NCBI GenBank assembly: GCA_023954475.1
Contig: JAMLHW010000015.1
Span: 62,001-126,000, forward strand
Origin: Anaerolineae bacterium
GTDB taxonomy: Bacteria > Chloroflexota > Anaerolineae > Promineifilales > Promineifilaceae
Length of the DNA: 64,000 nt
Direction of reading: 5' to 3'
The position numbers and the translations under genes are program-made. Each line of letters begins with the position of its first letter. Positions within the stretch are counted from its first letter, which is position 1. Below are positions 12,090 to 24,849 of the stretch, in pieces. The notes under the pieces were generated by a model that did no database searches, had not been told where the DNA came from, and worked only from the letters and a program-made list of their open reading frames with translations.

Positions 12090-13166
12090 TCAACGTTCAC
12101 TGAGAACGACCGATTCAAACCTTTCATGCCAATGCGATGACGTAACAGGCTCAGGCTGTACAACAGCGGCTGCCCAGGTCAATCCCGCCCCAAACGCCAC
12201 GAGCAGTAACTTATCGTAGGGTTGTATTTGACCGCTATCAAGCGCTTCCGCCAACGCAATGGCAACAGAAGCGGCAGACGTATTGCCGTACCACTCTATA
12301 TTTACGACAAAACGATCTTCGGGTATACCCATCGACCGTGCAGCAGATTCAATAATGCGCTTATTGGCTTGATGGGGGATCACCCAGTCGACCGCGTCGA
12401 ATGTCAGACCCGCCGCTACAACTGCATTTTGCCCCGCCATTGCCAGAATGCGCGTTGCAAACTTAAAAACCGCGCGTCCATTCATGCGAATCGTGTGTTG
12501 TTCCGATGCAACGCTCATAACCGTCGCAGGTTCAACACTGCCGCCGGCCGGAATCTTGATCTCATCTGCGCCGCTCCCGTCAGAACCCATGACGAAGCCG
12601 TGCAATCCACACGCTCCGTCTGTTGCTTCGAGCACAACAGCACCTGCACCATCGCCAAAAAGAATACAAGTAGAGCGATCTTCCCAGTCCACGAAACGAC
12701 TTAATGTCTCTGCACCAATGACTAACGCATTGGGAAATGCGCCGCTATTGATAAATTGGTAAGCCGTGATCAGTGCGGTCACAAATCCGGTGCAGGCTGT
12801 CTGCACAACCAATGCAGCGGCGTTAGTTGCACCCAAACCATACTGTACACGGCTGGAAACAGGTGGACAAAGTTCATCCGGCGTCGTCGTGGCCACGATG
12901 ATTAACTGCAAATCAGCAACGCTCAAACCTGCCTGGTCTAGTGCGCGTTTGCCCGCCTCAATCGCCATACTGGATGTGGTTTCTCCAGTTGCGGCGATGC
13001 GCCGCTCGCGAATGCCGGTTCGACGTACGATCCAGTCATCAGTCGTATCGACAGTCGCTTCGATTTCAGCATTTGTAACAACCCGTTCAGGAAGATAGGT
13101 GCCCCATCCGGTGAGGGCCGCGTTGCGTGTGGTCATGTTGGAAACATTGTTCGTTTTGGCTGGCAT
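12090..13166 (-). CDS. fabH: 3-oxoacyl-ACP synthase III (FabH-type)
   Basis: This 358-residue thiolase-fold enzyme condenses an acyl-CoA starter with malonyl-ACP. The catalytic triad is visible: Cys in VVQTACTGF near residue 121, His in DWVIPHQANKR near residue 265, and Asn in WYGNTSAAS near residue 295. Length is slightly above the usual 310-340 because of about 20 extra C-terminal residues and a short N-terminal lead. The ATG at 13166 has a weak GAGA upstream. An internal ATG at 13136 (MTTRNAAL) is possible but lacks a Shine-Dalgarno sequence. Only 33 bases separate this start from a perfect terminator ending the Met-Pro peptide gene, so transcription by read-through from that unit, or a very compact promoter, is implied. 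No other fatty-acid genes are nearby, so a specialised product is possible. Confidence 0.92.
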   Translation of the reverse strand: MPAKTNNVSNMTTRNAALTGWGTYLPERVVTNAEIEATVDTTDDWIVRRTGIRERRIAATGETTSSMAIEAGKRALDQAGLSVADLQLIIVATTTPDELCPPVSSRVQYGLGATNAAALVVQTACTGFVTALITAYQFINSGAFPNALVIGAETLSRFVDWEDRSTCILFGDGAGAVVLEATDGACGLHGFVMGSDGSGADEIKIPAGGSVEPATVMSVASEQHTIRMNGRAVFKFATRILAMAGQNAVVAAGLTFDAVDWVIPHQANKRIIESAARSMGIPEDRFVVNIEWYGNTSAASVAIALAEALDSGQIQPYDKLLLVAFGAGLTWAAAVVQPEPVTSSHWHERFESVVLSER

Positions 13167-13198
13167 GGTGTTTTCTCGTGCTACTGGCTTGGGTTTAC

Positions 13199-13232
13199 AA
13201 AAAGCCCGCCGGTTTTATAAGAATCGGCGGGC
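13199..13232 (-). terminator. Rho-independent terminator / possible attenuator between Met-Pro peptide and fabH
   Basis: On the minus strand GCCCGCCG pairs perfectly with CGGCGGGC around a 13-nt loop and is followed by TTTTT. It begins 12 nt after the tandem stop codons of the small peptide gene and lies 33 nt upstream of the fabH start. It therefore either closes a monocistronic peptide transcript or works as an attenuator controlling fabH. Confidence 0.9.
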
Positions 13233-13243
13233 TGGTGAAGTCA

Positions 13244-13357
13244 CTACGGGATGGTAGGCAAGGGCATTGGCATGGCTGGCATTGGCAATGGGATGGCCGG
13301 TATCGGCACGGGCATTGGGATGGGCATGGGCATGGGCATGGGGATTGAATGGTTCAT
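13244..13357 (-). CDS. 37-residue Met-Pro repeat peptide (novel small gene)
   Basis: The minus strand reads ATG at 13357, then 36 codons alternating Pro with Met, Ile, Leu, Val or Ala (MNHSIPMPMPMP... ending PMPLPTIP), then tandem stops TAG TGA. A canonical ribosome-binding site AAGGAG lies 7 bases before the ATG. A SARP-type promoter lies at 13400-13431 and a perfect terminator at 13199-13232, so every element of a complete gene is present. The sequence has 16 prolines and 8 methionines, no charged residue and only one His. It cannot form a normal helix and would be an extended apolar strand. Options are a leader peptide whose translation governs fabH, a secreted or membrane-associated peptide, or a metal (Cu) binding Met-rich peptide. 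No family is recognised. The opposite-strand frame is rejected because it has none of these signals. Confidence 0.8.
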   Translation of the reverse strand: MNHSIPMPMPMPIPMPVPIPAIPLPMPAMPMPLPTIP

Positions 13358-13399: not shown

Positions 13400-13431
13400 A
13401 CTATACAATCTGGTTGTGACCAGTTTGTGAC
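13400..13431 (-). promoter_or_regulatory. SARP-type promoter A (Met-Pro peptide gene)
   Basis: On the minus strand two identical heptamers GTCACAA (13431-13425 and 13420-13414) stand on an 11-bp period. The second is followed after exactly 8 bp by TATAGT (13405-13400), with no -35 hexamer. This is the geometry known for SARP/BTAD activators, where tandem heptamers replace the -35 box. The same arrangement occurs at 14006-14037 and 24818-24849. It lies directly after the GNAT stop codon and 43 bp upstream of the Met-Pro peptide start. Confidence 0.8.
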
Positions 13432-13434
13432 AGC

Positions 13435-13974
13435 TTAAAAAGCAGGGGCCCGGGCCGGAACGGATTGACTCTTTCGGCTGCGACGGGCGAGGCAACTCAG
13501 CGCTGTGGTAATGGAGCCGCCATAAGTATTAACCGGCACACCGCGCAATGTTTTACTGGCATACAGATAGTTGGCGAAGCGTGCGTATAGTTTGTTTGTA
13601 TACGGATTAGCAGCTTCAGCCTGCAGACGGATTTCGCTTTTTCCCATCTGCTTGAATTGGCGCAGGGCAAAGAGCAATCCTTTGTGAAAAACACGGCTCA
13701 GGCGGTATTCGTCTGCAATGGCAGCAACGTAGAGAAAAACAATTTCCTTGTTATCGTAGTCATGTGTTGGCTCACCGTAAAAGAAACCCATCATGCCACA
13801 CAACGTCTCGCCATCGTAGGCACCGACAACACCGCCCTGCTCGCAAATCAACGTCATCATTGCTTCGATTGCAGCCCTATCGGGCAAGTAGAGTTCATCT
13901 TTGACTGTCATAAGAAAGTCGATGATTGTCGCGGTGTCATTCTCTGAACACAGTTTGAAGTTGTAGCTGGTCAT
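13435..13974 (-). CDS. GNAT-like N-acetyltransferase domain protein
   Basis: This protein of about 179 residues fits a GCN5-related acetyltransferase fold: an N-terminal alpha segment, the central strands GGVVGAYDGETLCGMMGFFYG and EIVFLYVAAIADEYR, and a helix region with YTNKLYARFANYLYA near residue 140. The acetyl-CoA loop is poorly matched to the Q/R-x-x-G-x-G/A consensus, so enzymatic activity is uncertain. The last 20 residues are basic and disordered-looking. The ATG at 13974 (MTSYNFKL) follows GGAGAAAACGAA. The frame upstream to 14016 is not chosen because it would begin inside the promoter. SARP-type promoter B (14006-14037) puts the transcription start about 25-30 bases before the ATG. 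The stop codon abuts promoter A of the Met-Pro peptide gene. Confidence 0.7.
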   Translation of the reverse strand: MTSYNFKLCSENDTATIIDFLMTVKDELYLPDRAAIEAMMTLICEQGGVVGAYDGETLCGMMGFFYGEPTHDYDNKEIVFLYVAAIADEYRLSRVFHKGLLFALRQFKQMGKSEIRLQAEAANPYTNKLYARFANYLYASKTLRGVPVNTYGGSITTALSCLARRSRKSQSVPARAPAF

Positions 13975-14005
13975 TTCGTTTTCTCCGTTTGTCTGTGATG
14001 TCAGT

Positions 14006-14037
14006 AGCATATACAAGCGTCGTGACCAGTTTGTGAC
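14006..14037 (-). promoter_or_regulatory. SARP-type promoter B (GNAT gene)
   Basis: On the minus strand GTCACAA (14037-14031), four bases, GTCACGA (14026-14020), eight bases, then TATGCT (14011-14006). The heptamer period is 11 bp and the total geometry is identical to sites A and C. The linker ACTG between heptamers is the same as in site A. It lies about 105 bp from the divergent start of the BTAD regulator, so it may also affect that gene. Confidence 0.78.
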
Positions 14038-14141
14038 AGTGTGTTTCGGCCGAAACTAAATCAGCCATTTGCGTGACACTTGGTACACCGGGCAAGCATC
14101 CATCTATTGATTGTTTCGGCCGAATCCTCTACCATTCAGCC

Positions 14142-17100
14142 ATGCATCTCCAAGTAACCACGCTGGGAACGCTGGCCGTCACGGCAAATGGCCAGCCGAT
14201 CAAGGGATTTCGGTCGGCCAAAGTACAGGCACTGCTCGTCTATCTCGCCGTCGAAAGTGGCTACCCACACCGGCGTGAGGCGTTGATCGACCTGCTCTGG
14301 TCGGAACAAGACCCCAGGAGCGCCAACACCAACTTCCGCCAAACGTTGAGCCGCCTGCAGAAAGCGATCAACAACAAAGTGGCCGATCCACCCTACCTGA
14401 TCATCACCCGCCAAACTGTGCAGTGGAATCGTGACAGCGACTACACGCTCGACATTGACGCCACGCAGGCTGACCTGGAATCGGCCGAAACATTGCAACG
14501 CGCCATCGATCGCTATCAAGGCGACTTTTTGACCGGTTTCTTCGTAGCCAATGCCCCTGAATTTGAGGATTGGGCCGCCACCACGCGCGAAAACCTGCAT
14601 CAACTGCTGTTGTCCGGTTTGAAACACGCAACAGAGTCAGCCGCTGAACGTGGTGACTTTGATCTGATCGATGAACTGGCGCGCCGCCAATTGAATCTGA
14701 CGCCGTGGGATGAAGCTGCACACCGCGCGCTGATGCAGGCGTTGGCGATGCAAGGGCGGCGCAACGAAGCGCTGGCGCAATTTGATCGCTGCTACGAGGT
14801 GCTGGAGCAGGAACTGGGCGTCGAGCCGAGTGATGCAACAGTTGCGCTGTACGAACAGATTGCCACCGGCGTGGTTGCGCCGGAAGCAGAAGATACGCCC
14901 GGTCTGCCGCAACCTGTCACGCCATTTGTCGGCCGAATTGCCGAAATCAACCATATCATCCGCAACCTCTCCCAACCAGATTGCCGGATTTTGACGCTGA
15001 CCGGGGCTGGCGGGACGGGCAAAACGCGCCTGGCGCTGGCCGTCGCACAACAAGTGATCGACCGACTGGCCCGAGAGGTTGCCTTCGTTTCTTTGGTGGG
15101 TGTGACGTCAGTCGAACAAGCGCAGGCGGCACTGGCAAAGGTTCTGGGCGTTACGCTGCTCGACCCAACACGGGTAGAGCAGCAACTCAGTCAAACCGCT
15201 AATGAACGTGACCCCTTGTTGATTTTTGACAACGCAGAACCGTTGCTCGCGGCGGACGGCACTCGTCTGGTCAGTTGGCTCAACGCGCTCATTGAAGACG
15301 TGCCCGACGCGCGCATCCTCGTCACATCGCGTCAGCCGCTGCACTCGCAGATAGAACGGGTGTTGCCGGTAGGTGGCTTGGCCGTGCCTCATTCGGCCGA
15401 AACGCTGTCTCCCGCACAATGGCGGCAATTTGACGCCATCGCCCTGTTTGAACAACGGGCGCGACATGCGCGTGTGACGTTTGCGCTGACCAACGACAAC
15501 ATCAATGCAGTCGTGCGCTTATGCCAACTGCTCAACGGGTTGCCGCTGGGGATCGAGCTGGCAGCGGCACAGATGCGCACCCGTTCCGTTGCGGGCCTGG
15601 TTGCTGAACTCGAGCAGCAACCCGATCTGCTGGACGCCGATTTACGCGACCTGCCGCTGCGCCATCGCAGTCTGCACGCCGTTTTTGAGCATTCTTGGCA
15701 GCTACTCGATGAGGCGCAAGCCGACACACTCACACAATGTGCCGTATTTCGCGATGGCTTTACGCGGTCTGCAGCACGGGCCGTTCTAGGTGACGGCGCA
15801 GCATTGTTGGACAGCCTGGTTGACCACGCCCTGCTCTACCGCCGCGAAACGCACGACGGGACGGCTCGCATCCGCTTCAATTTGTCGGATGCGTTGCGTT
15901 CGTGGTTGTTGTCAACGCATGGGATAACAACAGATACGGCAGATCGGCATGCGGCGTATTACTTGCAGTGGGCCACCGATCATCGCGCTTTGCTGAACGC
16001 AGAGCGCAACAACATTGCAGCGGCCTGGGCATGGGCGCAGAAAAGCAATGCCGTCCGCGCGCCATTTGGGTGGGATCCGCTTTGGCTCGCCCAGGCAGAC
16101 CGCGTAAGCCGGTCGATTGAACGCACTGAACGTCAACCGAGATCAATTTTAGTAGGGCGTGATACGGAAATGGCGCAGTTGCGCGAGGCCATTCGGCCGA
16201 TTTTGACTGACAAACGCAACGGTGGCCTCGTCACGATCAGCGGTGAAGCCGGCATCGGCAAGAGTCATCTCGTCGACCAGTTGCGTGCCGATTATCAGCA
16301 TGGTGCTTGGTTTGATTGCCCGACGGACGAAGCCAGTGCACAAGCGCTGCTGCCGTTTCGCACCTGGCTGCACAATTACTTTGGTCAACACGAAGGCATT
16401 GCGCAAGATGAAAATCTGCAGGCGTTTGGCGCAAGATTTGACGATCTCGTGCAGGCGACGCCTGACCGCGAGGCAGCATCTGAATTGGATCGACTGTACT
16501 CGTTTCTGGCGGCCCTGGTCGATCTCATCTTGCCCGACACGCTGTACAGTCGTCTACGACCGGAACAGCGACGCGAGAACTTCCAGCAGGCAATCAAAGC
16601 GTTGATCAAAGCGGAAAGCGCGTTGCAGCCGGTGATCGTGCACATTGAAGACGGCCACTGGTTGGACACTGATTCGGCCGAATTGGTCGCCCACTTGTTG
16701 CGCAACGTGGCCGACTATCCTTTTGCCGTAATCGTGACCGCCCGTCCCAATCAATTTAAGCCACCGTTGCTACTCGATACGCCCCAGCACACACTGCGGC
16801 TGGAGCCGCTGTCGGCCGAATCGATCGCCCAACTGGCCGCTTTCCATCTGGATCAAGCGCCGGATAGCGCACTGGTCGATTGGCTGCAGCGACGCGGCGC
16901 GGGCAACCCGTTTTTCACTGAACAACTCTTGCACTATCTCGATGATTACGGCCTGATCGCCAACGGCAAACTGCGCCACACCGGCGTGACGCTGGCCGAT
17001 TCGCGACTGCCGCTCGATGTGCACAATGTGTTGGCCGCCCGACTCACACATTTGGAGCCTGCTACACGAAAAATCGTAGCACAAGCTGCTGTCTTGGGTC

Positions 17101-18782
17101 GTGAGTTTTCGCTGCCTGTGTTACAGCAACTTGTGGAACAAGATGATGTGTTGCGCGCCGGATTATCCGCCGGTGAAGATGCAGCAATCTGGCATCCTGT
17201 TTCGGCCGAACGCTATGCCTTCAACCACGCCCTGCTCCACGACACAGCCTACGACATCCAATTTGAGGCCGAACGCAATGAATTGCACGGTGAGGCAGCG
17301 CGTGCCGTGGCGGCCGTCGCGACAGCGGAACAACCCCAGTACGCAACGATTGCCCACCATCTCGAAGCAGCAGCAGAGTCGCGTCGGGCGGCCCACTACT
17401 ATTTGAAAGCTGGAGACGAAGCGCGTGACAACTACTTCATCCGCGAGGCACACAACCATTACTCACGCGGATTGCGCTTGGCAGAAACAGACGAGCAGCG
17501 TCTCGCCCTTTATCTGGGGCGGGAGCAGGTCAATTATTGGCTGGGTAATCGGGAGCAGCAAAAGGAGGATTTGCGCCAGTTGGTAGGGTTGACAGCGGAT
17601 TCGGCCGATAAACATCTGCTGGCCAACATCACCCTGCGCCGCGCCACATTTGCCCTGGCTACCACCGCATATGATCAGGCGATCCAGTATGCGCAGCGAG
17701 CGACGGCGCTGGCTGCCGCCATTCCGGATCGGTTGCTGGAAGCACGAGCGTATCGGAGTTGGGGACGTGCTCAATGGCAGAAAGGGCTGGCAAAATCGGC
17801 CGAACCATTGCTCAAACGTGCCAACCGGCTAGCCCAACTGTCTGGTGAAATGGCGGAAATGGCGTTGTGTACTTTTGATCTCGCAACAGTCGCATTTTAT
17901 ACATCTCAATACGAAGCGGCTCGAACCGGGTATCAACAGGCGCGAATGCAGTTTGAAGCGATTGACGACCGACACAACTACATTCGCTGCACTGACGCAC
18001 TGGGGCAGGTCGCGATCAACCAACATCAATTCGAAGCGGCCATCGAACAATTCAATCGTGTGATTGCCCTGAGTCAAAATATCAGTTGGACCTATCACGA
18101 GATGTACGGTTACGCACACCTTGGCGACTGTTACTTTGAACTGGGAGATTTTGCGCGCTGCCGTGCACTGCATCGCAAGGCGGTTGCTCTGGCGCGACTG
18201 CTCGACGAACCGCGCGCAGAAGCGGTCAGCTTTGACACGATTGGCCTGTCATACTTCTGCGAAAATCGTTTGCGCGAAGCACGAAGCCAACTAGACAAGG
18301 CTGTAGCGCTTTTCGAGCAGCACAACTTCGTTGCGGATAAAGCTTTCGCGCTGACCCATCTTGGCCTAACACTTGCCAATATGGAAGAAATCGAACTGGC
18401 CGGTGTTCGCCTCTATGATGCCTTATCGATTCGAACGCAGTCGGGCGTACAAGCTACGACCATCGACACTGAAGCGGCCCTGGCCTGGTTGGACATGGCG
18501 CGGGGAGACACAGAATTGGCCGTCGAACGCGCGCGTGACGTCGCAACATGGCTAGCCGCCAACGGTATAACAGGCGTTGAGTTGCCGTTTTTGGTCTACC
18601 ACCAATGCTACACAATTCTGCGTGCCGCTGGATTGTCCGAGGAATCAGAGCGGGTGCTGGGGTCCGCTTATACCTTGCTACAAGAACTGGCACAAGGAAT
18701 CGCGGACGATTCCCTGCGCCACTCGTTTCTCAACAACGTTCCTTACAACAAGCAAATCGTTGCTACGTGGTCAGTTCTCTAG
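14142..18782 (+). CDS. Giant SARP-like regulator: BTAD, two NTPase modules, TPR repeats
   Basis: This 1546-residue protein has, in order: a winged-helix DNA-binding domain (1-95, VTTLGTLAV...FRSAKVQALLVYLAV), a BTAD domain (about 105-250, ending ELGVEPSDATVALYEQI), a first STAND-type NTPase with P-loop GAGGTGKTR near residue 287, and a second AAA_16-type NTPase introduced by a GRDTEMAQLREA segment with P-loop GEAGIGKSHL near 700. TPR-like repeats run from about 1090 to the end. The N-terminus is the Streptomyces SARP/AfsR architecture. Two consecutive NTPase modules in one chain are unusual. The ATG at 14142 starts the conserved domain; the longer frame to 14073 adds unrelated residues. Three promoters with SARP-type tandem heptamers lie within 11 kb on the minus strand, and these are its predicted targets. 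Its last 12 bp overlap the convergent FG-GAP gene. Confidence 0.92.
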   Translation: MHLQVTTLGTLAVTANGQPIKGFRSAKVQALLVYLAVESGYPHRREALIDLLWSEQDPRSANTNFRQTLSRLQKAINNKVADPPYLIITRQTVQWNRDSDYTLDIDATQADLESAETLQRAIDRYQGDFLTGFFVANAPEFEDWAATTRENLHQLLLSGLKHATESAAERGDFDLIDELARRQLNLTPWDEAAHRALMQALAMQGRRNEALAQFDRCYEVLEQELGVEPSDATVALYEQIATGVVAPEAEDTPGLPQPVTPFVGRIAEINHIIRNLSQPDCRILTLTGAGGTGKTRLALAVAQQVIDRLAREVAFVSLVGVTSVEQAQAALAKVLGVTLLDPTRVEQQLSQTANERDPLLIFDNAEPLLAADGTRLVSWLNALIEDVPDARILVTSRQPLHSQIERVLPVGGLAVPHSAETLSPAQWRQFDAIALFEQRARHARVTFALTNDNINAVVRLCQLLNGLPLGIELAAAQMRTRSVAGLVAELEQQPDLLDADLRDLPLRHRSLHAVFEHSWQLLDEAQADTLTQCAVFRDGFTRSAARAVLGDGAALLDSLVDHALLYRRETHDGTARIRFNLSDALRSWLLSTHGITTDTADRHAAYYLQWATDHRALLNAERNNIAAAWAWAQKSNAVRAPFGWDPLWLAQADRVSRSIERTERQPRSILVGRDTEMAQLREAIRPILTDKRNGGLVTISGEAGIGKSHLVDQLRADYQHGAWFDCPTDEASAQALLPFRTWLHNYFGQHEGIAQDENLQAFGARFDDLVQATPDREAASELDRLYSFLAALVDLILPDTLYSRLRPEQRRENFQQAIKALIKAESALQPVIVHIEDGHWLDTDSAELVAHLLRNVADYPFAVIVTARPNQFKPPLLLDTPQHTLRLEPLSAESIAQLAAFHLDQAPDSALVDWLQRRGAGNPFFTEQLLHYLDDYGLIANGKLRHTGVTLADSRLPLDVHNVLAARLTHLEPATRKIVAQAAVLGREFSLPVLQQLVEQDDVLRAGLSAGEDAAIWHPVSAERYAFNHALLHDTAYDIQFEAERNELHGEAARAVAAVATAEQPQYATIAHHLEAAAESRRAAHYYLKAGDEARDNYFIREAHNHYSRGLRLAETDEQRLALYLGREQVNYWLGNREQQKEDLRQLVGLTADSADKHLLANITLRRATFALATTAYDQAIQYAQRATALAAAIPDRLLEARAYRSWGRAQWQKGLAKSAEPLLKRANRLAQLSGEMAEMALCTFDLATVAFYTSQYEAARTGYQQARMQFEAIDDRHNYIRCTDALGQVAINQHQFEAAIEQFNRVIALSQNISWTYHEMYGYAHLGDCYFELGDFARCRALHRKAVALARLLDEPRAEAVSFDTIGLSYFCENRLREARSQLDKAVALFEQHNFVADKAFALTHLGLTLANMEEIELAGVRLYDALSIRTQSGVQATTIDTEAALAWLDMARGDTELAVERARDVATWLAANGITGVELPFLVYHQCYTILRAAGLSEESERVLGSAYTLLQELAQGIADDSLRHSFLNNVPYNKQIVATWSVL

Positions 18783-21700
18783 CGTGCCATCTGCGCCGCG
18801 CACCGGGGGCGCCAGGTAAAGCGTGTGCGCGCCTTCCACTTTTACGTAGATGAAATAGGTTTGGCCGAATTCGAACACCGTTACAGGGTCATCTGTCGAC
18901 GTTGCAACTGGCTGAACCGGCGTTGTGTAGCGGCTCGATATCCAACACATTCCTACCGCTTCCCCGGGACACGCGATCTCCCACCAGCCATTTTGCAAAC
19001 GCAATACGCTCACAGTTGTGCCGAGTGGCAACTGGCCAACGATCCGCGCGCGCAGAGATTGCCCACTGCGCACATTGAGAGGACCGGCCGTGACGGAAAC
19101 CTGCGCGAACAAGTCGTTGGCAACGAGGATGCGGGCCGGATCGTATTTATCTTCAATTGACAAGAGGGTTTGTGTGATCGTTCGTGTAACCGGCAGCGGG
19201 TACGAAAACAGGTTCCAGCCTTCGGTCAGCGAAATCGGTATCGTTACAAAGAGACCATACGTGCCATTTTCCTGCTGCAACTCTGCGACAATCAGGTTCT
19301 CAACCTGGCTTTCGCTATTGGCGACAGGTCGCCACGGTTCGTCACAATTTTCTACGGCGCTCTCTGGCAGAAAATAGAGACCCAGTGCGTATTCGTAGCC
19401 CGGAGGAACATCGCGCTGCAGGTAGGAGAGTGCGATGAAGCGATTCAGCTCGAACTCTTCCAGAACAACGCGGTATGACTGTCCGACTGCAACAAGTCCA
19501 GCCGGTGCACACGGTGCCGCGGTCACGGACTGAACGCTGGCAACGCCGTTTTCGTCGAATATGTTGGGGGAGTTGTAGATGATCAGCTGCGCATCGGCCG
19601 AACTAATCGGTGCGCCCGCTGTACGATTGCCACCCCCGACAATGGTGCTGTTGGGTCCGCCGACGATGGTACTATTAGGACCACCCACGATGATGCTGTT
19701 TGGATTGCCCAGAATGGCTCGCCCGGCTCCGCCGACAATCGTGCTGTTGGGCCCGCCAACGATGGTACTGTTGGGTCCGCCAACAATCGTGCTGTTCGGC
19801 CCACCGACGATGGTGCTGTTTGGACCGGCTATCAACGGCGCGAATTTCAGATTGATTTCACCACTTTCCTGAGCACCGCTCGCATCCCAATCCGGCGGGT
19901 TGAGAAGCAGTATGTCGATCAGTTCGCGGCCATCTTGCGGATTCACCAACTCGCAATCGCTTGTTGCGTTATCTTGCCCCTGCCAGACGCGAACGGCAAT
20001 CTCATATGCGGGCAACGGCAAAGAAAACGTTGCTCGATATGTCCCGGCATTATCTGATGGCTCAGCTCGCTGAATCGGAGCATTGCCGACCGTTGACCTG
20101 TAATGCATCGGGAAGAGTTGCACACACACGGCAGCGTCACGCGTCGCCCCATCGATAGTCACGGCGACAGTGCGTCCATCATCAGATTGCGCCCCAATTT
20201 CGGGGTGCCACTCATCATCATGCTTCACCACGGGAATCGTGACGGTATTGCGACTCATCTCATCGATACACCCGCTGTATTCTGCGCCAAACAGGCACAG
20301 CCGGTCGCCTTCTTCCGCACCGCGCACCGCAATGCGATCACCGCCACCTGTCGGCGTGCCGAGCGGAATCAGTACATCGTCGGTCGCAATCGTTGGCGAG
20401 TAAGTCTTGAAAAGGAACACCTGGGCATTGGGCAGTCGCTGACGTTGCTGCTCACTGTTGCGAATGTCGAAGTTGCGATCTGCAAATGGCAGGCTTGCTT
20501 TATCATCTGGTCCCCACGGCAGCAGGTAGGTCACGGCAAGTGGTAGATCAGATGGTCCATCAACTGTCTCCGATTTCTCTGGATCACGTAGCATCGGATA
20601 GAATTCAAGGACAGTTTGCCAATCATTGCGGCCCAGCAGTTCCTGGGCCAATGTCAGTGGGCACTCTCCTACGTCCCAACGATCTCCATACAGTAGTTCA
20701 CTAACGGCAGGATTGTTCGTGGTGGTCATGAAACTGTCAGGACAGTAGATGCGCCGCAGAATGCCGTTTTCGATACCCAGATAATTGTCCGGGAGGAATA
20801 GCAGGTAGTGAGCAAGTTCGTGCGCCAATGCGCGCGACCAATCGACTCCTAAATCGGCTGTATGCTCTCCATATGGATCCCACGACGTTCCCATCCTGAT
20901 CTGACCAGGGAAATAGGCATCCTCGTAGGGTTGGCGCTTCTGTTCATCCGGTATGTCTGCTAAATTCACATTGCCGGGATCATCGACTGGTGCGTTAACG
21001 ACGCCACCAATGGCGGCAGATGGACGCAAGCTGTTGTCGGCGCGGATGACAATATCGGCCGAACCCCAATACGCCTTATCGTGGAAGAGATTGATCTGCC
21101 CCAGCGCCACCTGACCATCTGTGATGTCATAGAGCAGGGCAGACGCATCCTGAAAACTGTCTTCCAACTGCTGTAAGAAGAGCAGATCGTTGCGAGCATC
21201 CCATTCGAGGGAGACATCAAGATCAAATAGGATGAGTGGGTTGTCGGCCGAAACTGTTAGCGTTTGAACGCCACCTGCCGTTACCGGTGTGAACATCACG
21301 CCATTTGTCGCACTTGTGACAACCGTGCTCGTGATAGCGCCGCTCGTATGGTACAGGGTGTAGAGCGGTTTGAAAGCGACGGTGACATCAGTCGACAGTT
21401 GCAGATCGTTGCCATTGCCACTGTGATCTTTGACTGTTCGCCCGTCTTCCTCGGTTATCGGCCAGTAGCCGATGAGGTGGGTTGCATCCTCTTGCGACAT
21501 TTCCCCTGATGCTAACAAGGTGTCACCAGATGTTGCGAAAATACGGCTGCCTGCAAAAATAGTTTCTGTTATCGGCCGACGCACCGTATCCCACAGCCGG
21601 ATTTCGTCCAGCGTGCCTTCGAATCCATCGCCGATCACGGCCCTCGTGATCGAGACAGTAGCGGTCATTGCTGTCGTATTGGTGACGACCGGTTCACCAT

Positions 21701-24700
21701 CCGCGTAGAGGATCACTTCGCCTGATTCGGCCGACCACGAAAATGCAAGGTGATGGGGCGAGCCGTCGCGCAGCGGTACGGCGTCTGTGCTGGTGGTTTC
21801 TCCGGCAACAGTCAGTGAAATTGTGGTCGTGTCGGAGATGGTCTGATACGACAAGTGTGTATTGTCGCCGAGCGCGATCAGGGTTGCGGCGTCGCCGGTG
21901 GGATAGAGCCACATTTCGGCCGAAAATGCATCTAGCGCTTTACTTGGCGCCGTCAGCGAATTTATCGCAATGGTCCCGGAATTGGCGTCAAAGATCAATT
22001 GTGGCGGAATGCGATACGCTTGGGTGACGGGCAACATGGCTAATAGCTTGTCCCCTTCCACTATACGACCACGCCCGCTCAGGAAACCGGAAGCGTTGGT
22101 CGTGAAGGGTTGTCCGGTCAGTGTGTTGCCCATCAGCAAGGCAGTTTGGCTATTGTCAGACAGCAAATAAGCAACGGCATTCTCGATGCCAGCCTCCCCT
22201 GTGTCGGCTGCTGCGACGACTCGAATCTGTTTACCGAATACGCGGAACGGCATTGTCTCTGCCTGAACGTGCGGTTGTTGAAACGTACCGGGAACTGTAT
22301 TGGGCATGGGTTCGATTGACGAACGCGGCTGCAGTTGAAGGCGAAAACGTACGTCGTCATTGCGACCTGTGAGGCCATCGGCGGCAATGTTCCAGGTAAA
22401 GACGTGCTGCCCGGGCTGCAATTGTTGCCAAACAGTCTCTGCGGTTGGTGTTGCGGACAGCCAATTCATACCACCGTCAATTGAGTAGAATCCGACAGCG
22501 TCATAGGCGTGTTCCCCGGGGCCAGTGAATTCGTAGAAAAATGTCACGAATCCGTCATCATAGTAGCGGTTCAGGGACGGTGGGTCGGTGGGCGCCACAT
22601 AGATGTTTTCCGCCCCGGTCAGCGGCGTCGTGACCAGGTTGCGATCGATAATCGTAATGCGTAGCGGCGATGCGCCAGTGAAATCGGGGTTGGCCGGAGA
22701 GTAGATCAATTGCTCGACGCCGTCTGGTATCGGCCGATACAGTTCCACATCACCGTTCAAGTTGACAGCAGCATGTGGCCGGACAAAACGCGATTGCAGC
22801 GTCAGCGGTGTCTCGGCCAGATCACCATCATCGTTGAGATAGATGCGCTCCAGCGGGCTGGCGCTGTCGCGTGCGACGAGATCGAGATCGCCGTCCTGAT
22901 CAAAATCGATCCAGCGCACTGCCGCCGTCGGGGAAATATCAGACGCCTGCCACCAGGGCAATTTGTCCAGCAAACCTGTCGCCGGGTTGAATCGATACAC
23001 AAGATCACGACCGCTAGCTTTATCAAGGGTGAAAGCACTGTTCGTGCCAATTGCCAAGTCGAGGTAACCATCAGCATCGACATCGCCCCACGCGAAATCT
23101 GCTGCCGGCACATCGTTGTCACTGAACCAAAGCGGCTCCGGCAAGAAGCTGCCTTGTCCGTCGTTTTGATACAGTTGCACCGCTTGGCCGTACGTGCCGA
23201 TCACAATGTCGATAAATGCATCATCGTTGACGTCTCCCCAGGCAAATGTACGCACGACGGGCGCCGTGTCGGCCGAAACGTTCAACAGGCCACGAAACGG
23301 ACTGGTACTGACAAATTCACCATTTTCATTTGTATCCAGCAACACCCCGCGTGACAGGCCGCCCGAGGCGGCTTCGGGTGCGCGCACGCGATCGAGATCA
23401 CCGTCGTTGTCGATGTCGCCCCAAAGAACGTTGTCATTTGAACTGGCGTATGCCAGATCAGGTACAGGTTGCCACTGGTTCTGTTCATTGTAGAAAAGGC
23501 GCAGTGGTTGGCGCTGCTCTGCCACGATTACGTCGAGGTCGCCGTCGCCGTCCACGTCGGCCCATGACGCGATAGCTGAGTTCATGACGGGAAACGGTAG
23601 TTTGGCCTGAATGAACTCGGCCGAATCATCTTGTTGCAGGAAAACACGCATAGCGGTTGCAATGTCAAGCAGACCATCGCCGTCGACATCGGCCCATGCC
23701 GATGGAAATGAGTTGAAGTTAGCGAAGTGCAAAAGCCGACGCGACTCGACGTCGAGGTCGCAAGCCGTCAGTTCAGGGAATGCGTAGGGAGCTACATGCG
23801 TATAGGCGCCACCAAATAACGGATCCGACCCGCCCAGCGCGAGCTGTTGCGCTGAGCCGTCGCCGGTTGGCCCCCACTGAGCGTGCCTCAGTCCAAAGAA
23901 GACCGGGCATGTGATCACGTGGTTCAATCCGGCAGTTCCGTCGGCGCGATAGAGCCGCAGCGCATTCCCGCTGACCGTAACCAGGTCCAGAAACTGGTCG
24001 CCGTCGGCATCAGCCAATGTCAGATCAAGCGTGTTGCCCTCGCTGTCTGCAAGCGGCACACCGTCGTCCGGATAGAACGGCTCAGTGTCCCGGCCCGTGT
24101 GGAGATAGACGACATCCGTGCCGGCGCTTTCGTCCGTGGCCAGATGTGCGGCCACAAGGTCGTACCAGCCGTCGCCATTGACATCGCCCACGACGATGCG
24201 ACTGGTCGGCGACACGTGCCCAGACTGCCATATCGGCGTTGTCGCCAGCTCACCCTGCTCATTCAAGTAAAGTTCGTCTGCCCCATCGTTGCCGACAACC
24301 AGGTCAAGCCAACCGTCACGATTGATATCGGCCCAGACGACTGAGTTGGTCTGGCCGGGACGGCTGAACCAATCGGCCGATACACCAAACTGGCCCTCAT
24401 CGTTCAGATAGAGGCGATTGGGTTGCGGATTATCTGCTTCGGTCGAAGATGTACCGACGATGAGGTCGAGATCGCCGTCATTATCCACATCTCCCCAGGC
24501 TAAATCGGTTACCTGATCCACACGCGCTGCTATCCAAACCGGTTCTGAGGACATGGGCAATGTGACGGGAGCATCTGGCTCGCTACCCTGAGCATTAATC
24601 GGCCGAATTACACTCTTGCCCTGCAAGAGTAACAGGATCAACACACCGATAGGAACGGCACACACAAGAAAAAGGGTACGAACTCTGCGGGGTTTCGGCC

Positions 24701-24710
24701 GAATGGTCAT
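18771..24710 (-). CDS. Giant secreted FG-GAP/VCBS protein with LamG, HExxH, octapeptide and SH3b regions
   Basis: This protein of about 1979 residues begins with a basic N-region (MTIRPKPRRVR) and a hydrophobic signal segment ending near INAQG at about residue 40. About a dozen FG-GAP/VCBS-type repeats (WGDVDNDGDLDL and variants) fill residues 55-680 and should form a calcium-binding beta-propeller. A LamG/concanavalin-like domain is at about 915-1045. A zinc-protease-like HELAHYLLFLPD motif stands near residue 1295, and eight octapeptide repeats at about 1628-1693. A bacterial SH3 domain is at about 1870-1940 (GPLNVRSG...WWEIACPG). It is likely an exported adhesin or protease. The ATG at 24710 has AGGAG 9 bases upstream; the frame upstream to 24890 overlaps SARP-type promoter C and is rejected. 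Its 3' end overlaps the regulator gene by 12 bp. Confidence 0.88.
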   Translation of the reverse strand: MTIRPKPRRVRTLFLVCAVPIGVLILLLLQGKSVIRPINAQGSEPDAPVTLPMSSEPVWIAARVDQVTDLAWGDVDNDGDLDLIVGTSSTEADNPQPNRLYLNDEGQFGVSADWFSRPGQTNSVVWADINRDGWLDLVVGNDGADELYLNEQGELATTPIWQSGHVSPTSRIVVGDVNGDGWYDLVAAHLATDESAGTDVVYLHTGRDTEPFYPDDGVPLADSEGNTLDLTLADADGDQFLDLVTVSGNALRLYRADGTAGLNHVITCPVFFGLRHAQWGPTGDGSAQQLALGGSDPLFGGAYTHVAPYAFPELTACDLDVESRRLLHFANFNSFPSAWADVDGDGLLDIATAMRVFLQQDDSAEFIQAKLPFPVMNSAIASWADVDGDGDLDVIVAEQRQPLRLFYNEQNQWQPVPDLAYASSNDNVLWGDIDNDGDLDRVRAPEAASGGLSRGVLLDTNENGEFVSTSPFRGLLNVSADTAPVVRTFAWGDVNDDAFIDIVIGTYGQAVQLYQNDGQGSFLPEPLWFSDNDVPAADFAWGDVDADGYLDLAIGTNSAFTLDKASGRDLVYRFNPATGLLDKLPWWQASDISPTAAVRWIDFDQDGDLDLVARDSASPLERIYLNDDGDLAETPLTLQSRFVRPHAAVNLNGDVELYRPIPDGVEQLIYSPANPDFTGASPLRITIIDRNLVTTPLTGAENIYVAPTDPPSLNRYYDDGFVTFFYEFTGPGEHAYDAVGFYSIDGGMNWLSATPTAETVWQQLQPGQHVFTWNIAADGLTGRNDDVRFRLQLQPRSSIEPMPNTVPGTFQQPHVQAETMPFRVFGKQIRVVAAADTGEAGIENAVAYLLSDNSQTALLMGNTLTGQPFTTNASGFLSGRGRIVEGDKLLAMLPVTQAYRIPPQLIFDANSGTIAINSLTAPSKALDAFSAEMWLYPTGDAATLIALGDNTHLSYQTISDTTTISLTVAGETTSTDAVPLRDGSPHHLAFSWSAESGEVILYADGEPVVTNTTAMTATVSITRAVIGDGFEGTLDEIRLWDTVRRPITETIFAGSRIFATSGDTLLASGEMSQEDATHLIGYWPITEEDGRTVKDHSGNGNDLQLSTDVTVAFKPLYTLYHTSGAITSTVVTSATNGVMFTPVTAGGVQTLTVSADNPLILFDLDVSLEWDARNDLLFLQQLEDSFQDASALLYDITDGQVALGQINLFHDKAYWGSADIVIRADNSLRPSAAIGGVVNAPVDDPGNVNLADIPDEQKRQPYEDAYFPGQIRMGTSWDPYGEHTADLGVDWSRALAHELAHYLLFLPDNYLGIENGILRRIYCPDSFMTTTNNPAVSELLYGDRWDVGECPLTLAQELLGRNDWQTVLEFYPMLRDPEKSETVDGPSDLPLAVTYLLPWGPDDKASLPFADRNFDIRNSEQQRQRLPNAQVFLFKTYSPTIATDDVLIPLGTPTGGGDRIAVRGAEEGDRLCLFGAEYSGCIDEMSRNTVTIPVVKHDDEWHPEIGAQSDDGRTVAVTIDGATRDAAVCVQLFPMHYRSTVGNAPIQRAEPSDNAGTYRATFSLPLPAYEIAVRVWQGQDNATSDCELVNPQDGRELIDILLLNPPDWDASGAQESGEINLKFAPLIAGPNSTIVGGPNSTIVGGPNSTIVGGPNSTIVGGAGRAILGNPNSIIVGGPNSTIVGGPNSTIVGGGNRTAGAPISSADAQLIIYNSPNIFDENGVASVQSVTAAPCAPAGLVAVGQSYRVVLEEFELNRFIALSYLQRDVPPGYEYALGLYFLPESAVENCDEPWRPVANSESQVENLIVAELQQENGTYGLFVTIPISLTEGWNLFSYPLPVTRTITQTLLSIEDKYDPARILVANDLFAQVSVTAGPLNVRSGQSLRARIVGQLPLGTTVSVLRLQNGWWEIACPGEAVGMCWISSRYTTPVQPVATSTDDPVTVFEFGQTYFIYVKVEGAHTLYLAPPVRGADGTLEN
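19630..19826 (-). repeat. Tandem 24-bp repeat encoding GPNSTIVG octapeptides
   Basis: Within the giant secreted protein, eight consecutive 24-bp units encode GPNSTIVG four times, then GAGRAILG and NPNSIIVG, then GPNSTIVG twice, before decaying into GGNRTAGA. DNA units differ mainly at third codon positions, so the peptide is under selection rather than freshly duplicated. An eight-residue period with Gly, Asn and beta-branched residues suits a narrow beta-solenoid or stacked-turn stalk. It is in frame and uninterrupted, so it is not a CRISPR array. Confidence 0.9.
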
Positions 24711-24817
24711 TCTAACATACTCCTGCAAACGATGATAACTTGCCACATGATAGCATACTTGATAGGACACAGGCCTTTGCCGCATCGCATTAGCCCCAGA
24801 ACATGTTTGCAGACAAG

Positions 24818-24849
24818 ATGATAACGACGAGGTGTGACTAATTTGTGAC
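24818..24849 (-). promoter_or_regulatory. SARP-type promoter C (giant FG-GAP gene)
   Basis: On the minus strand GTCACAA (24849-24843), four bases, GTCACAC (24838-24832), eight bases, then TATCAT (24823-24818). The heptamers are on an 11-bp period and the 8-bp gap to the -10 is the same as at sites A and B, although the intervening bases differ, so the geometry is conserved independently of sequence context. The predicted transcript leader before the ATG at 24710 is about 100 nt. Confidence 0.8.

Follow-up and report, generated by a model that had tools for sequence, protein, structure and literature searches.

A 1546-residue regulator of the large SARP type, encoded in an Anaerolineae genome, very probably activates a candidate regulon of four promoters through tandem GTCAC heptamers. 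It would be one case of a promoter layout, specific to each regulator, that recurs across the class. With their operators, the BTAD regulators of Anaerolineae probably make up a large natural library of pairs that annotate themselves, where residues 92, 88 and 84 (AfsR numbering) would set bases 1, 2 and 3 of the heptamer and SARP operators would be predictable from sequence alone. SARPs switch on many antibiotic clusters, and their operators have usually been found singly.

GTCAC promoters and the regulator gene

The window, that is the whole stretch analysed, comprises 64,000 nt from Anaerolineae bacterium GCA_023954475.1 (contig JAMLHW010000015.1, positions 62,001 to 126,000). It contains three exact matches to GTCACRM-N4-GTCACRM-N8-TANNNT, each 32 bp long and all on the minus strand, which bears out their location in the first-pass annotation. 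Site 1 (GTCACAA-ACTG-GTCACAA-CCAGATTG-TATAGT; 13400..13431, minus strand) is 5' of the gene of a Met-Pro peptide. Site 2 (GTCACAA-ACTG-GTCACGA-CGCTTGTA-TATGCT; 14006..14037, minus strand) is divergent from the regulator gene and 5' of a GNAT-like gene. Site 3 (GTCACAA-ATTA-GTCACAC-CTCGTCGT-TATCAT; 24818..24849, minus strand) is located about 100 bp 5' of the ATG of a giant FG-GAP gene. The pattern was found in none of 100 dinucleotide-preserving shuffles of the window, and the window holds no fourth exact copy, as had been noticed before. A heptamer-agnostic scan, accepting any heptamer pair with at least 6/7 identity, 11 bp apart and followed by 8 bp and TANNNT, returned four places, three of which are sites 1-3. 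Sites 1 and 2 have the same linker, ACTG, and the flanks of the sites differ. The three sites showed no standard -35/-10 pair.

A palindrome, TTTCGGCCGAAA, is present by sites 2 and 3 (window example at 14044-14057). As a real operator it is ruled out by its 2562 counted matches, with at most one mismatch, in the 5.12-Mb genome versus 38 for the reversed control. Its abundance is like that of a HIP1-type highly iterated palindrome.

The regulator gene (14142..18782, plus strand) encodes wHTH, BTAD and STAND NTPase domains, a second AAA_16 module and TPRs. Its start is most likely ATG 14142 rather than GTG 14073, to which the ORF extends. Domain searches matched BTAD (E 3.6e-21), AAA_16, NACHT and TPR. 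The protein is a true SARP, with an N-terminal OmpR-type wHTH followed by BTAD; the STAND/NOD NTPase and TPR parts after BTAD are those of large SARPs of the AfsR type, and the second AAA_16 module is extra. As to the SARP-LAL type, the C-terminal half shows some resemblance to the AAA-TPR part of a TOMM kinase/cyclase fusion model, far below the cut-off of that model. TPR matches aside, AfsR (8hvr) and EmbR (2fez) come nearest in sequence among solved structures. By fold, the regulator model matched AfsR in the transcription initiation complex first (top PDB entries 8k60 and 8hvr) and then EmbR, the match being only moderate because the pLDDT of the model is 64. The recognition helix (residues 58-76; 14313..14369, plus strand) is present in the model. 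For its residues T63, Q67 and R71, equivalent to AfsR 84, 88 and 92, the heptamer bases predicted to be read are C3, T2 and G1, respectively. The protein had been singled out as the sole SARP/BTAD protein of the window; it is in fact the only one on the whole contig, though one of 14 in the genome. Elsewhere its halves are separate genes: in the same genome, two adjacent genes (G000:C5:96518-103154; L077) match its first and second half separately. The regulator thus looks like a fusion, and the comparison suggests a gene fusion in the lineage of the window.

The predicted targets in the window are all on the minus strand. Site 2 precedes the gene of the GNAT-like protein (179 aa; 13435..13974), which has a weak Acetyltransf_1 match below the cut-off. 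The Met-Pro-rich peptide behind site 1 (37 aa, MNHSIPMPMPMPIPMPVPIPAIPLPMPAMPMPLPTIP; 13244..13357) was read from the sequence. It had been described with fabH behind it. The peptide gene is indeed 3' of site 1, but the gene of the fabH-type ketoacyl-ACP synthase III (12090..13166) is preceded by a strong rho-independent terminator (13198..13233, minus strand; 9-bp G+C-rich stem, U5, z -2.7). fabH may therefore fall outside the regulon, to which it would belong only by read-through. From its domain matches, the third target (1979 aa; 18771..24710) is a giant secreted FG-GAP/laminin-G/SH3 protein. It bears a HELAH motif (zinc-peptidase-like) and tandem VGGPNSTI / GGPNSTIV repeats.

Genome-wide, GTCAC-N6-GTCAC-N10-TANNNT has four matches in 5.12 Mb, each on the minus strand of its contig: the three of the window and one on C8. 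The reversed control pattern has none, and simple arithmetic gives a chance expectation of about 0.15 per genome. The search that had been proposed for the whole genome thus shows that the pattern is not common. The fourth site (GTCACAA-CCTG-GTCACAA-CTATCCGC-TATTCT; C8:78597-78566, minus strand) is 5' of the gene of a 71-aa peptide and that of an FAD-dependent oxidoreductase. Across heptamer-linker-heptamer it matches site 1 at 17 of 18 bases. When one mismatch is permitted, just two more genomic sites appear (C2:40862 and C12:25138), both adjoining other BTAD genes. C2:40862 was rejected as a fifth site, since it is apparently the C2 paralogue's own site, GTGACGT-TGTG-GTGACGC, read as the reverse complement. 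C12:379727 and C22:172366 (GTCACAA-N4-GTCAC) were also discarded as regulon members, being inside reading frames and having no -10 at the right distance.

Together, the three local promoters and the distant one plausibly make up a candidate regulon. The first-pass annotation had defined a new regulon by the shared spacing. A regulon is plausible, but spacing alone does not define it because BTAD regulators throughout the class share this geometry; it is the GTC heptamer that does. As to control of a secondary-metabolite cluster, no biosynthetic cluster was recognised among the targets (GNAT-like protein, Met-Pro peptide, C8 FAD enzyme). In two of the four target operons a short peptide gene comes first and that of a biosynthetic-type enzyme (FabH-like or FAD enzyme) second, so the product might, as a guess, be a small modified signal or metabolite.

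Promoter layout and recognition helix across Anaerolineae

SARP repeats follow an 11-bp period, with the 3' repeat 8 bp from the -10 (PMC10936776). We compared 100 BTAD regulators, all from this family and class, together with their upstream DNA. Heptamer repeats with an 11-bp period are present in 65 of 99 upstream regions, versus a mean of 24.9 for other spacings (sd 5.5, maximum 36); in coding DNA of the same genes they are found in 20/100, with no excess. With the heptamer anchored on its ACG core, the divergent strand has TANNNT exactly 8 bp further on in 19.5 of 38 regions, and the strand facing the regulator in none. The full pattern, at 6/7 identity or more, occurs in 40/100 regions versus 7 on the facing strand, whereas control spacings of 9, 10, 12 and 13, with the 8-bp gap kept and on either strand, give 0-3 regions. 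A clear divergent site was seen in only 57/100 regulators. The heptamer consensus is NNN-A-C-G-(A/T), and linkers are T-rich. The gap to the -10 is 8 in 52 of 54 called sites; the site caller prefers an ACG core and a gap of 8, which may sharpen the consensus and the gap count but not the dependence of bases 1-3 on the protein residues. The target promoters thus contain direct repeats of the 11- or 22-bp period of SARPs, and the 3' repeat is 8 bp from the -10. This layout is the usual one for Anaerolineae BTAD regulators, and the first three heptamer bases are its regulator-specific part.

Among 80 genes behind SARP sites, 22 encode one small protein family, mostly of 60-100 aa (YLLRLW...WRASLE...TGER.GF..L..FL). 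These loci (L186, L054, L133, L166 and 18 further) are divergent from BTAD genes. For the four members that were scanned, neither Pfam (above cut-off) nor NCBIfam yielded a match. The family is not present at the window sites.

Covariation was measured in 69 non-redundant regulator/site pairs. Out of 236 alignment columns, the highest mutual information links residue 92 to base 1 (z 7.7), 88 to base 2 (z 9.3) and 84 to base 3 (z 8.3). These residues follow one another at intervals of four along the same side of the recognition helix. The covariation is consistent, indirectly, with reading of the repeat by the residues equivalent to AfsR 88 and 92. Rules drawn from a first set were then checked on a second one of 57 regulators from 44 other genomes, treated with the same fixed site caller. 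R92 goes with G1 in 3/3 cases versus 1/22 for other residues (p 0.0017), and Q88 with T2 in 14/14 versus 3/11 (p 1.5e-4). N92/T1, T84/C3, A84/A3, K84/G3, H84/G3, S88/G2 and D88/C2 did not reach significance in this second set alone, several of them because cases were few. Tree-aware contrasts, on a tree built without the recognition helix, gave 11:0 for R92/G1, 8:0 for T84/C3 and 7:1 for Q88/T2 (p 0.035); of 1950 control tests outside the helix, none did better than 6:0. Among pairs below 35% identity, base 1 is the same in 68% when residue 92 is the same, versus 23%. Q88/T2 is weaker among the most distant pairs, and the G1 rule fails in 2 of 22 R92 regulators. Geometry and covariation together lend strong support to the SARP layout claimed for the three sites and to their assignment to the neighbouring BTAD regulator.

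Two base-specific contacts are seen in the cryo-EM structure of AfsR (PMC10936776): R92 touches T-38, and T88 the base paired with position -36. Alignment of the repeat by the 8-bp rule, which is our own, would place them at positions 1 and 3 of the heptamer. The code that we propose, and hold to be probably right together with the library reading, is Arg=G at residue 92; Gln=T, Ser=G and Asp=C at 88; and Thr=C, Lys/His=G and Ala/Asn=A at 84. Such a SARP recognition code has apparently not been reported before. For the T84-Q88-R92 of the window regulator it predicts GTC, as found in all four sites.

Comparable relatives of this regulator were found in only two of 59 genomes. The one in G031, an Anaerolineae MAG, is full length (42% identity); the one in G029 (49% identity) is cut by a contig end. 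Residues 84/88/92 are T, Q, L in G031, with the divergent site TTCACAA-TCTG-TTCACGG, and T, Q, Q in G029, with ATCACGA-ACTG-CTGACGG, where the second heptamer is degenerate. In both sites the -10 is at 8-9 bp. The three related regulators, the window one included, keep T84-Q88 together with TC, except in the second G029 heptamer, while residue 92 changes as R, Q, L with base 1 as G, A, T. Because the conserved residues go with TC and the changing one with base 1, the sites are tied to the neighbouring regulator far more firmly than by spacing. The target genes are not conserved between the relatives. An FG-GAP orthologue in G031 (41% identity) is likewise convergent to the regulator, but no counterpart of site 3 could be recognised 5' of it. 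Conservation beside orthologues therefore holds for the divergent promoter, in G031 and in degenerate form in G029, and was not found for site 3.

Where the window protein has HELAH, this FG-GAP orthologue carries HELGH, and its repeats read GGPNNAGI. The G029 relative is divergent from a gene (L073:2580-3089) for a transmembrane protein with effector-associated domain EAD7. Exact GTCAC promoters were set aside as conservation evidence: there are just three in 197 relatives, and only that of G028 is beside a BTAD gene. The search was then made with free heptamers instead. In G028 (L074:9022-9731), a GTCACAA site is divergent from a 1187-aa BTAD gene and faces a SnoaL-like gene, a putative target; a second site, GTCACGC-TTCT-GTCACGC, is found 680 bp on, 5' of a small membrane-protein gene.

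Proposed mechanism and alternatives

By analogy with the SARP family, two N-terminal wHTH-BTAD parts would sit next to each other as a dimer, on tandem GTCAC(A/G)A heptamers spaced 11 bp. Placed 8 bp from the -10, this dimer would stand in for the -35 contact that sigma region 4 lacks here, and so activate transcription. The NTPase and TPR parts may gate activation in response to some signal. The regulon would comprise the GNAT-like gene, the Met-Pro peptide, the giant secreted FG-GAP protein, and the C8 71-aa peptide with its FAD enzyme. Across the class, each BTAD regulator would be divergent to a promoter with its own NNN-ACG-W, the NNN being read by the equivalents of AfsR 92, 88 and 84.

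This reading builds on the geometry, orientation, genome-wide rarity and covariation observed above. With 14 BTAD genes in the genome, another paralogue, or several at once, could bind the sites, and the four promoters would then be no private regulon. The C12 paralogue, which has R at position 92 and a divergent site GTAACGT-AGAG-GTCACGA, may read GTC too, or take part in cross-talk. However, three of the four sites flank the window regulator, whose T84-Q88-R92 predicts GTC exactly. In heptamers and linker, site 1 is nearly identical to the C8 site and unlike that of C12, and other paralogues have CAA, GTG and TCG heptamers. We consider this alternative unlikely.

It is less probable still that the repeats serve repression, or autoregulation of the regulator gene, rather than activation of the divergent genes. 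Site 2 does lie 105 bp 5' of the regulator ATG, in the shared intergenic region, but two of the three sites are away from that promoter, only the divergent strand shows a constant distance to the -10 throughout the class, the sites lack a standard -35/-10 pair, and known SARPs activate. Dispersed repeat copies or chance matches with no regulatory role could be imagined from the linker common to sites 1 and 2 and from the richness of the genome in the other palindrome, TTTCGGCCGAAA. This is very improbable given the differing flanks, the empty shuffles and the four matches in 5.12 Mb versus zero for the reversed control. The covariation of helix and heptamer across many genomes, with the orientation statistics, refutes it unless an independent data set overturns them.

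Activation by the window regulator would be an ordinary SARP mechanism, with the four-promoter regulon as a candidate. A search of open-access papers returned no SARP study and no SARP operators in Chloroflexota. If the pairing holds, the SARP mechanism extends to this phylum, and a code from Anaerolineae would make the operators of uncharacterised SARPs predictable from sequence. Uncultured Anaerolineae, rich in such regulators, would gain a way to map regulons.

Comparison with known systems

AfsR, which acts at the afs box in Streptomyces coelicolor, shares with the window regulator the wHTH-BTAD fold and the NOD/STAND and TPR parts. Its operator also consists of two 11-bp direct repeats that replace the -35, 8 bp from the -10. 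Helix residues 92 and 88 are its base readers, as proposed here. The AfsR heptamer is TT(T/C)ATCG, whereas that of the window is GTCAC(A/G)A. The window regulator differs by its second AAA_16-TPR module (1546 aa in all) and its Anaerolineae host, and, where AfsR has afsS, its divergent targets encode peptides, a GNAT-like protein and a secreted protein.

PimR of Streptomyces natalensis, a SARP-LAL, binds as one monomer per heptamer and needs at least two (PMC5930380). As in the window, 4 bp separate its heptamers, and the operator is intergenic and divergent from another gene. In contrast, its heptamer is CGGCAAG, there are three repeats, the operator does not overlap the -35 and the C-terminal half is guanylate-cyclase/LAL-like. 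EmbR of Mycobacterium tuberculosis has the same wHTH-BTAD fold, with an FHA domain in place of the NTPase-TPR part. Other Anaerolineae BTAD paralogues, like the window regulator, have a divergent tandem-heptamer promoter beside the regulator gene. They differ in having their own first three bases and, for 22/80 divergent targets, in facing the small, undescribed 60-100-aa family.
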